Shown piece after piece: positions 47,649-51,335 of a stretch of 64,000 nucleotides of DNA. This stretch comes from Natronococcus sp. CG52. Its GTDB lineage: Archaea > Halobacteriota > Halobacteria > Halobacteriales > Natrialbaceae. A program made the translations under genes and the position numbers. How positions within the stretch are numbered: position 1 is the stretch's first letter; every line of letters begins with the position of its first letter. The stretch lies in contig NZ_CP099391.1 of the NCBI RefSeq assembly GCF_023913515.1, positions 2,914,001-2,978,000 of the forward strand. The letters are read 5' to 3'. The notes under the pieces were generated by a model. It saw only the letters and a program-made list of their open reading frames with translations, searched no databases and was not told the DNA's origin.

Positions 47649-48407
47649 TCACGACCCCCCCGCGTCGGTCGACTGCAGGTCGTACGCCTCGTCGAAGAAC
47701 GCGGCCTCGAGGTCGACCGTCCGGCGGAACAGCCGTTCGACGCGAGCCTGCCGCCGCGGCGAGCAGTCCGGACCGACCGCGTCGAGCTGATCGCGAAGTT
47801 CGTCGACGAACGCGACGAACGACGGCACCGCGTGGAGGTCGATCCACTCGGCGTAGTAGAACGGCAGATTCGCACCGGCGCTCGGTCGTTCCCCGTTCGG
47901 ATTTCCGTACCGGTCCGCGACCGCCGTCGCCCACTCGCGGTAGATCCACTCCGCGGGGACGAGCACGGCGAGCGTCTCGGCGTACCCGCCCTCGCGGGCG
48001 GCCCGGCCCAGCAAGTCGACGAGCGCCGCGGTCGTCGGCGAGCGGTCCGGATCGCGCCGCTGCGCCTCCGACACGTCCAGCGCGTCGAACGACCGCTCGA
48101 CGTAGTCGTTCTCCTCGACGGTCACCGTCTCGAGGAACTCGATCAGCGGCCGTTTCGCGGCGACGTCGGGCGCCTGGCCGACCGCGAACCCGAACGCGCC
48201 GACGAGCGCGTCCAGGAAGGCCGAATCCTGAACGAGGTAGGTCGCGAACGCCTCCTCCTCGAGCGTTCCCGCACCCAGTTCCCGCGTAAACGGGTGGTCC
48301 ACAGCGTCGGTCCACGCCGACTCCGACCGTTCGCGAAGCCAGGCGGTGAACCGCGGGTCGTCCGCTCCGTCGGCGTAGTCCGCGTACGACGCCGGGACGT
48401 CGCTCAC
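47649..48407 (-). CDS. TenA family protein lacking the catalytic Cys (TenA_E-like)
   Basis: The 252-residue protein has the TenA all-helical fold. It keeps the substrate Asp (D61 in LVQDSAF) and an ending FFDEAYDLQ, but where TenA has PC it reads LVPAEWIYREW (A152, E153). This is the pattern of TenA_E proteins, which in plants hydrolyse pyrimidine breakdown products of thiamine. The GTG at 48407 is chosen because it overlaps the upstream tenA stop (GTGA). It is coupled to the symporter gene. Confidence 0.82.
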   Translation of the reverse strand: MSDVPASYADYADGADDPRFTAWLRERSESAWTDAVDHPFTRELGAGTLEEEAFATYLVQDSAFLDALVGAFGFAVGQAPDVAAKRPLIEFLETVTVEENDYVERSFDALDVSEAQRRDPDRSPTTAALVDLLGRAAREGGYAETLAVLVPAEWIYREWATAVADRYGNPNGERPSAGANLPFYYAEWIDLHAVPSFVAFVDELRDQLDAVGPDCSPRRQARVERLFRRTVDLEAAFFDEAYDLQSTDAGGS

Positions 48408-49063
48408 AGCCCCCACCCCTCCTGCGTGTAGGCCATCTCCCAGAACCGGTACTCGAGTTTGGCGCTCGTCAGGAACGCCTCGCGCATCGCATCGTGTTCG
48501 CCGGGGTACCGCTCAGCGCACCGATCGACGAACTCCCGACACCACGCCGTCGCCTCGCGGAACTCCTCGCCGGTGTAGGTGTCGATGAACGGCGTGAACT
48601 CGTGGTCCTCCTCCGCGAGGTCGGCCGCGTGTTCGGCGACGTCGAGGTAGCCCTGCATGCACGGGTAGAGCGCCGCGGCGATCTCCGCGATCGATCCCTC
48701 GTGGGCCGTCCGCACGAGGAAGTTCGTGTACGCGACGCAGGTCGGCGCCTTCTCGACCGCCTCGAGTTCGTCCGGCGAGATACCGTACTTCGCGGCGAAC
48801 TCCCGGTGAAGATCGAGCTCGTTGTCCAGCACCTGGTGGGCGACGCCCAGCAGGTGGGTCATCGTCTCCTCGTCGCGCGCCTTGCCGCCCGCGATCGCGA
48901 ACAGGCGGGCGTAGTCGAGCAGGTATCGGTAATCCTGTTTCACCCAGTGTTCGAACGCGTCCTCGTCGAGCGTTCCCGCGGCGAGTTCGACGACGAACGG
49001 GTGCTCGAACTGTGCTTCCCAGACGTCTCGACCGTGCTCGAGGAGCTCCTCACTGAACGTCAT
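48404..49063 (-). CDS. tenA: aminopyrimidine aminohydrolase (thiaminase II), TenA_C type
   Basis: The 219-residue protein has Asp44 (VKQDYRYL) and Cys135 (LYPCMQGY), the same numbering as in Bacillus TenA, and the C-terminal Glu in LEYRFWEMAYTQ. It hydrolyses 4-amino-5-aminomethyl-2-methylpyrimidine to HMP for thiamine salvage. It is the first gene of the salvage operon. The ATG at 49063 is chosen because sequence before it is not conserved and lies in the promoter region shared with thrS. Confidence 0.92.
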   Translation of the reverse strand: MTFSEELLEHGRDVWEAQFEHPFVVELAAGTLDEDAFEHWVKQDYRYLLDYARLFAIAGGKARDEETMTHLLGVAHQVLDNELDLHREFAAKYGISPDELEAVEKAPTCVAYTNFLVRTAHEGSIAEIAAALYPCMQGYLDVAEHAADLAEEDHEFTPFIDTYTGEEFREATAWCREFVDRCAERYPGEHDAMREAFLTSAKLEYRFWEMAYTQEGWGL

Positions 49064-49247
49064 CGCCCTCACTTGGGGAGGACCCGAGATATACGTGGCG
49101 AATACCACCAACTCATATCGCGGGCTGGTGGACGCTGTGGTCGACTCGGACGGCGAGGACCGTCGATCGGTCGTTCGAGACCGACCCTCAGCGACCGACC
49201 GCACCATCACAATGTTTTTATCCCGCTCGAGATAACTCGTAGTCACG
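49064..49247. promoter_or_regulatory. divergent tenA/thrS promoter region
   Basis: This region separates tenA from the thrS leader. On the plus strand GTTTTTATC (49214-49222) is a good TATA box about 27 bases before the leader ATG at 49248. I looked for a thiamine (TPP) riboswitch in front of tenA and saw none of its conserved segments. A minus-strand TATA for tenA is less clear; GATATACGTG near 49088-49097 is a candidate. Confidence 0.5.
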
Positions 49248-49289
49248 ATGGTAGGTGTCCGCTTTACAGGGGCTCTCGCCCGCTTCTAA
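49248..49289 (+). CDS. 13-residue leader peptide of thrS
   Basis: The frame is ATG to TAA in 14 codons, giving MVGVRFTGALARF. The upstream TATA box places the transcription start at or within a few bases of this ATG, so it would be read from a leaderless end. There is one Thr codon (ACA, codon 7). The peptide could sense translation speed; no homologue was checked. Confidence 0.5.
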   Translation: MVGVRFTGALARF

Positions 49290-49391
49290 TCCACACCTAC
49301 CGCTCGCTGTGCCGGTCCCGATCCGCCAGCGAGCGGCGTGCGCGGACGCCCGTCCGAACTTCTGTCCGAAGTTCCCACACCGATTACAGCC
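49248..49391 (+). promoter_or_regulatory. thrS leader with 13-codon peptide and alternative stem-loops
   Basis: A leader peptide MVGVRFTGALARF is encoded at 49248-49289 (stop TAA). Its first codons form the 5' arm of GGTAGGTGT/ACACCTACC (49250-49258/49293-49301). A second perfect stem CGCTCGCTG/CAGCGAGCG follows (49301-49309/49327-49335). CGGAC (49343-49347) can pair with GTCCG at 49352-49356 or at 49364-49368; the second choice excludes a GAACTTC/GAAGTTC hairpin (49356-49362/49368-49374) just before thrS. The layout resembles ribosome-mediated attenuation. Confidence 0.65.
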
Positions 49392-51335
49392 ATGTCAGAA
49401 CCAGATTCACAGCAGCGGATAGCGGTCGTACTGCCAGACGGATCCGAACTCGAGGTCGACACCGACGCGACGGTCGAAGACTGCGCCTACGAGATCGGTC
49501 CCGGCCTCGGAAGCGACACGGTCGCCGGAAAGCTCGACGGCGAACTCGTCGCCAAGGAAGCACCCGTCTACGACGGCGCGGAACTCGAGATCGTCACCGA
49601 CGGCTCCGAGGAGTATCTCCGGGTTATGCGCCACTCCGCCTCGCACTGTCTCGCCCAGGCCGTCGAGCGCCGCTACGACGACGTCGACCTCGCGATCGGC
49701 CCGCCGACGGACGAGGGATTCTACTACGACTTCGACAACCTCGAGATCGACGAGGAGGATCTCGACGGCCTCGAGCGCGAGATCGAGGAGATCGTCGCGG
49801 AGGACTACGAGATCGAGCGCGAGGAGCTCTCCGTCGAGGAGGCCCGCGACCGGCTGGCCGACGAACCGTACAAGCTCGAGCTTCTCGAGGAACTCGCCGA
49901 CGAGGACGAACAGGTCACCTTCTACAGCCAGGGGGAGTGGGAGGACCTCTGTGCCGGCCCGCACGTCGACTCGACGGGCGAGATCGGCGTCGTGAAACTG
50001 CTCGAGATCGCCGGCGCCTACTGGCGCGGCGACGAGGAGAACACGATGCAGACGCGGATCTACGGCACGGCCTTCGCCGAGGAGAGCGACCTCGAGGAGT
50101 TCCTCGAGCGCAAGCAGGAAGCCGAGAAGCGCGACCACCGCCGCATCGGCAACGAGATGGATCTCTTCTCGATCCAGGACGTGACGGGCCCCGGACTGCC
50201 GCTGTATCACCCGGCCGGGAAGACGGTGCTGAAGGAACTCGAGGACTTCGTCGAGAGCCTCAACCACGACGCGGGCTACGACTACGTCGAGACGCCCCAC
50301 GTCTTCAAGACGGACCTCTGGCACCGCTCGGGCCACTACGAGAACTACGCCGACGACATGTTCATCTTCGACGTCGGGGACGACGAGTTCGGTCTGAAGC
50401 CGATGAACTGTCCCGGCCACGCCGCGATCTTCCAGGACCACTCCTGGAGCTACCGCGACCTGCCGATCCGCTACGCCGAGAACGGGAAGGTCTACCGCAA
50501 GGAACAGCGCGGCGAGCTCTCGGGACTCTCGCGGGTCTGGGCGTTCACGATCGACGACGGCCACCTGTTCATCCGGCCCGACCAGATCCAGAGCGAGGTC
50601 GAACAGATCATGGACATGATCACGGACGTGCTCGAGACGTTCGACCTCGAGTACGAAATGGCGCTGGCGACCCGACCCGAGAAGTCCGTCGGCAGCGACG
50701 AGATCTGGGAAAAAGCGGAGGAGCAACTCGAGAACGTCCTCGAAAAGCGCAACCTCGACTACGACCTCGAGGAGGGCGACGGCGCCTTCTACGGCCCGAA
50801 GATCGACTTCGCGTTCGAGGACGCCATCGGCCGCTCGTGGGACGGCCCCACCGTACAACTGGACTTCAACATGCCCCAGCGGTTCGACCTCGACTACGTC
50901 GGCGAGGACAACGAGGAGCACGAGCCGGTGATGATCCACCGCGCGCTGTACGGCAGTTACGAGCGGTTCTTCATGATGCTCATCGAGCACTACGAGGGCC
51001 GGTTCCCGCTGTGGCTCGCGCCCGAACAGCTCCGCGTGCTGCCGATCTCCGACGACAACCTGGGCTACGCCCACCGCGTCGCCAACGAGTTCGACGGGTT
51101 CCGCGTCGAGGTCGACGACCGCGACTCGACCCTCGAGCGCAAGATCCGCGCGGCCCACGACGACCGCGTCCCCTACCAGATCATCGTCGGGGACAACGAG
51201 GAAGAAGACGGGAACATCTCGGTGCGCGACCGCTTCGAGGATCAGGAGTACGACGTCGAGATCGAGGCGTTCCGCAACCACCTCGAGGCCGAACGCGACG
51301 AGAAGCGGACGGAACCGGACTTCCTGCAGGGCTGA
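49392..51335 (+). CDS. thrS: threonyl-tRNA synthetase, bacterial-type domain layout
   Basis: The 647-residue enzyme charges tRNA-Thr. A TGS domain (about 8-70) is followed by a second editing domain with HSASH (about 79-83) and CAGPH (about 188-192), then the class II core: [23 protein letters not shown], motif 2 ([13 protein letters not shown]) and motif 3 near 555. The C-terminal anticodon-binding domain follows. This layout is the bacterial/eukaryotic form, not the D-tyrosine-deacylase-like editing domain of most archaea. The ATG at 49392 begins MSEPDSQQR after the structured leader. Confidence 0.95.

Follow-up and report, generated by a model that had tools for sequence, protein, structure and literature searches.

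The thrS gene of Natronococcus sp. CG52 is preceded by a leader that comparison of haloarchaeal genomes shows to be, with high confidence, a real element: conserved, specific to thrS, apparently translated, and equipped with competing, covarying helices. The best explanation is a threonine-specific, ribosome-sensing attenuator of thrS (probability about 0.6). It would be an archaeal ribosome-mediated attenuator, old in haloarchaea, in which the ribosome reaches the switching arm through leaderless initiation and the sensor is a single threonine codon, both rare and invariant. The analysis was carried out on a window of 64 000 nucleotides (contig NZ_CP099391.1, positions 2 914 001–2 978 000); coordinates refer to this window, and thrS, its promoter and all leader features lie on the + strand.

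Promoter and translation of the leader

The thrS gene (49392–51335; ORF P0001) encodes a bacterial-type threonyl-tRNA synthetase (ThrRS) of 647 aa with matches to TIGR00418, TGS and tRNA_SAD; in a protein comparison with its product, the nearest named ThrRS sequences were those of Natronococcus and other Natrialbaceae. Divergent from thrS lie two adjoining TenA-family genes (47649–49063), the first a clear thiaminase II, and then a sodium:solute symporter; these genes may form a cluster for thiamine salvage. No tRNA genes were found nearby, and a search of the locus for a sigma-type promoter or a terminator yielded neither.

The TATA box of the thrS transcript (TTTTAT, 49216–49221) begins 32 nt upstream of the leader ATG at 49248. 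Measured from the first T of the box to the A of the leader ATG, the distance was 32 nt in 94 and 33 nt in 11 of 105 loci; the same loci carried no comparable box upstream of the thrS ATG. A TATA box that places the transcription start at a 13-codon peptide had been proposed in the first-pass annotation and is supported by this spacing. At loci lacking the leader, the box stands 30–31 nt upstream of the thrS ATG itself (20/23). As the spacing matches that at the leaderless thrS genes of other families, the leader occupies the start position of a leaderless gene, and this promoter spacing puts the transcription start probably at, or a few bases from, the leader AUG. Leaderless mRNAs, which have no 5′ UTR, make up 72 % in Haloferax volcanii, and haloarchaeal transcripts are mostly of this kind (PMC4983044); a leaderless leader ORF would therefore be a distinct design.

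The leader ORF (49248–49289) encodes the peptide MVGVRFTGALARF in the codons ATG GTA GGT GTC CGC TTT ACA GGG GCT CTC GCC CGC TTC TAA; its alignment spans 107 loci in three families, as well as distant copies. Of 222 substitutions counted along a minimum spanning tree from codon 8 onwards, 112 were synonymous, against 27 % expected (p = 3e-13, a value that is only indicative because the tree edges are not fully independent). The spacer between the leader and thrS, read in the thrS frame as a control, gave 29 % synonymous against 29 % expected. Indels within the ORF keep the frame, in steps of 3, and the stop codons interchange (TAA 101, TGA 2 and TAG 2 in 105 loci). Translation of the leader is thus strongly supported by comparative evidence.

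The C-terminal ARF of the peptide is kept through synonymous changes, as would be expected if the peptide sequence itself, and not the supply of Thr-tRNA, stalled the ribosome upon some ligand. Such nascent-peptide arrest is nevertheless unlikely: a chain of 13 residues barely enters the exit tunnel, the C-terminus varies widely outside Natrialbaceae, and the codons TTT and ACA are fixed at the codon level.

Distribution and ancestry

In a search of 125 genomes from the family of strain CG52, nearly all gave a leader DNA match with E<1e-5, and a covariance model found one match per genome, at thrS; this conservation makes chance untenable as an explanation. Essentially every complete Natrialbaceae genome with this type of thrS carries the leader in front of it. 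Families are given by the labels of an anonymous genome set, in which f1 corresponds to Natrialbaceae in the broad sense. In a survey of the regions upstream of thrS at 130 loci, the leader was present in f1, f7 and f10 and absent from 23 loci sampled from f4, f5, f6, f12 and f17. The covariance model of helix A (described below) detected further copies in f4, f5 and f17 in front of divergent thrS genes (54–69 % identical over the stretches compared); direct reading of the sequence ahead of thrS revealed another in f3. At these distant loci the leader ORF was in frame and adjoined thrS in 32 of 32 tested. In total the leader occurs in about 150 genomes; besides Natrialbaceae it is present in two neighbouring families and has a patchy distribution over at least four further haloarchaeal ones. 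On a ThrRS tree its presence requires 5–7 changes, which indicates that it is old and has been lost, gained or transferred several times. One locus scored as leader-bearing in this tree (L050) was taken as a chance occurrence of TTTACA in a bacterium, and weak model matches in G147, G171, G348 and G468 were discarded, as they do not lie at thrS.

Three Natrialbaceae genomes (G039, G040 and G118; loci L245, L244 and L246) encode only an unrelated ThrRS, 28–31 % identical; none has a strong leader match, and G039 and G040 have no match at all. Most of the remaining weak or absent matches come from fragmentary assemblies or from the variants L217 and L218, discussed below. In two genomes thrS is present twice, the threonine leader preceding one copy while the other is leaderless (G153, L325 and L350; G288, L326 and L351).

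Helices and the TTT ACA codon pair

The region 49240–49410 folds at −64 kcal mol−1, compared with −50.4±3.9 kcal mol−1 for shuffled sequences (z −3.5; 0/200 as good). Helix A pairs a 5′ arm within leader codons 1–4 (49250–49258) with a 3′ arm directly past the leader stop (49293–49301), and encloses the inner hairpin P1a (GGGC-TCTC-GCCC, 49270–49281) between the Thr codon and the stop. In 38 diverse sequences, 94.8 % of the cells of helix A and P1a were paired and six pairs had changed on both sides; none of 500 shuffles scored as high on any measure, with an alignment that had been fitted to the model. P1a persists despite register shifts and altered pairs (GGGC:GCCC, GGGG:CCCC, CGGGC:GCCCG); in f4 g80 it is missing or modified. 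Counting covariation among close relatives alone gave no information, since their helix A is almost invariant.

Hairpin P2 (CCGCTCGCTG ... CAGCGAGCGG, 49300–49336) shares its first bases with the 3′ arm of helix A and has a perfect stem of 10 bp (49300–49309/49327–49336). Of its cells 88.5 % were paired and 22 had changed on both sides (0/500 shuffles), and its loops vary in length and sequence. A small hairpin (GAACTTC-TGTCC-GAAGTTC, 49356–49374) precedes thrS in part of Natrialbaceae only.

Helix X pairs an arm overlapping the 5′ arm of helix A (49254–49262) with GCGGACGCC at 49342–49350. Its mean duplex energy at 93 Natrialbaceae loci was −20.8 kcal mol−1, against −15.2 kcal mol−1 for shuffles, and compensatory variants (CTGC:GCAG and CCGT:ACGG) occur. 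When arms were swapped, leaders with GTGTCCGTT or GTGTCTGCT, the two best-sampled variants, paired better with their own downstream arm (7.0, 6.4) than with the majority arm (5.7, 5.1); this preference was absent in the six GTGTCTACT leaders and in the leaders of other families. Outside Natrialbaceae helix X was not significant, and only helix A was. As both use 49254–49258, helices A and X are mutually exclusive.

The stems of the first-pass annotation can be judged against these results. The 9-bp stem formed with the first codons of the peptide is helix A; the second perfect 9-base stem is present and perfect, with a length of 10 bp (P2). Mutually exclusive stems are real, the best-supported pair being A and X, the latter missing from the earlier account, and not the local pair near thrS. 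Covariation in related thrS leaders, which had been put forward as a check on the stems, was found for helix A and P2 and, within Natrialbaceae, for X, and the stems and the peptide, on whose conservation that reading had been made to depend, are both conserved.

A structured, covarying leader directly upstream of thrS would also be expected if ThrRS, or ThrRS together with tRNA-Thr, bound the leader and repressed its own translation by analogy with E. coli thrS, the ORF being secondary. This is improbable, since no loop resembling the tRNA-Thr anticodon is conserved, the loops of P2 are variable, and the coding signal and the in-frame variants require translation. The arms of helix A also form an inverted repeat just downstream of the start site, and a palindromic operator for a transcription factor would keep complementarity in the DNA as well; such an operator is very improbable, because the distance between the arms varies by tens of bases (roughly 80 nt in L210, 51 nt in L217/L218), covariation extends to P2 and X, and selection acts at the codon level.

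The presumed sensing site of the attenuator is the rare codon pair TTT ACA (Phe6-Thr7, 49263–49268). Codon 6 was TTT and codon 7 was ACA in 105 of 105 aligned leaders, and both recur in L217 and L218. In a codon usage sample of 41 window ORFs picked by G+C content at codon positions, TTT made up 8 % of Phe codons and ACA 1.8 % of Thr codons. TTTACA was found in 32 of 32 distant leader copies, a count to be read with the fact that the covariance model that found them contains the motif. Codons 2–5 are constrained by the helices; TTTACA lies outside helices A and X, and persists in L217 and L218. The standard 13-codon leaders have a single Thr codon and no Thr run. Given this invariance, codon 7 probably serves as the threonine sensor.

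A simple upstream ORF, whose termination would set a fixed, low level of re-initiation at thrS with the helices as tuning and no sensing of an amino acid, agrees with an ORF that is translated by comparative criteria and with helices that close around its stop codon. It leaves unexplained both the invariable ACA (Thr) and TTT (Phe) and the confinement of the leader to thrS, and is considered rather unlikely. One invariant codon that fits the synthetase downstream, with hairpins on both sides, could also be the specifier codon of an RNA that senses tRNA-Thr directly, like a T-box. Searching Rfam up to E 10 matched no T-box to the leader, no conserved antiterminator element was seen, and the evidence for the ORF means that ACA is translated, so that T-box-like sensing is held to be highly unlikely; nor did any other Rfam family match the leader.

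Proposed attenuation model and comparison with known systems

In the attenuator model, a ribosome would start the 13-codon leader by leaderless initiation once the RNA emerges. By covariation, the 5′ arm (leader nt 3–16) pairs either with the arm just past the stop (helix A) or, in Natrialbaceae, with one 40–60 nt further downstream (helix X), the two being mutually exclusive. With Thr-tRNA plentiful, the ribosome would translate through to the stop, after which the 5′ arm would re-pair. With Thr-tRNA short, it would wait with ACA in its A site, and roughly nt 1–30, including the 5′ arm of both helices, would lie under it. A ribosome at the stop codon would instead sit on the 3′ arm of helix A. 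Both positions, reckoned with general footprint sizes of ribosomes, suit a sensing role. Since a ribosome waiting at ACA would hold the 5′ arm, neither A nor X should form and the mRNA towards thrS should be open; slow decoding of ACA would thus be predicted to favour thrS expression and raise ThrRS synthesis.

No U-run or T-rich terminator was found in the leader region, so that control is likelier to act at translation than at termination. Modelled accessibility of the thrS start (ensemble folding with a free, an ACA-stalled and an at-stop ribosome state) gave no consistent direction. A GGAGGT resembling a Shine–Dalgarno (SD) motif occurs within or beside P2 in some f7 genomes, and in some f4 genomes close to thrS. 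According to Kramer et al. 2014 (as cited in PMC8576121), SD motifs do not function in the 5′ UTRs of H. volcanii, and these GGAGGT motifs are therefore no proof of an output. Of the attenuation leader proposed for thrS in the first-pass annotation, the translated, thrS-specific leader and the competing stems hold on comparative grounds. Ribosome-mediated attenuation driven by Thr-tRNA supply is the best, still putative explanation of its mechanism; the single Thr codon, in place of a run, and the missing terminator count against it.

Two features do not fit the attenuator model neatly, namely the geometry of L217 and L218 and the spacer that preserves the frame. In L217 and L218 the leader is 30 residues long: an unrelated N-terminus replaces the usual one, the ATG is still in frame, and the peptides end in RRFTRAVARF and LRFTRAFARF. 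Both retain helix A, which in L217 is rebuilt from other bases. Between the 5′ arm and ACA they carry a 51-nt in-frame insertion, so that a ribosome stalled at ACA would not cover the 5′ arm. Another locus, L210, has an insertion of roughly 80 nt with internal inverted repeats at the leader stop, between the arms of helix A.

The spacer from the leader stop to thrS (49290–49391 here) has a length divisible by 3 at 89 of 107 loci, and this length changes by multiples of 3 on 54 of 76 edges of the minimum spanning tree. Because the spacer lengths keep the frame, read-through of the stop codon to an N-terminally extended ThrRS was considered. It was rejected, as the spacer substitutions carry no coding signal (codon positions 70/65/68; synonymous fraction 0.29 vs. 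0.29 expected) and additional in-frame stops occur at some loci.

In bacteria, attenuation by a translating ribosome is textbook knowledge. No report of it in archaea was found in the open full-text literature, which omits most subscription papers. A leader containing Trp codons was reportedly once suggested for the trp operon of a methanogen, an operon later assigned to a repressor. The thrS leader is compact, is directly testable by point mutations, and offers a route to asking how archaea sense charged tRNA.

Like the bacterial trpL, hisL, thrL and leu/ilv attenuators, the haloarchaeal element has a short translated leader with a cognate codon ahead of a gene for the same amino acid, and the position of the ribosome is proposed to choose between mutually exclusive helices. 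Bacterial attenuators usually have codon runs, whereas this leader has one fixed rare codon; it also differs in being archaeal, in leaderless initiation at the 5′ end of the mRNA, in the lack of an intrinsic terminator, in using its own first codons as the switching arm and in having a synthetase gene as its proposed target. With the erm and cat translational attenuators it would share a stall in the leader ORF that rearranges hairpins and makes the downstream ORF translatable; those respond to antibiotics through stalled peptides, whereas the invariant element here is a threonine codon. The thrS T-box of Gram-positive bacteria is likewise a synthetase leader with one key codon and alternative structures, but is untranslated and binds tRNA directly. 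The E. coli thrS operator is also a structured RNA upstream of thrS; it mimics the anticodon arm of tRNA-Thr and binds ThrRS, whereas the haloarchaeal leader has no such conserved loop and carries a leader ORF.
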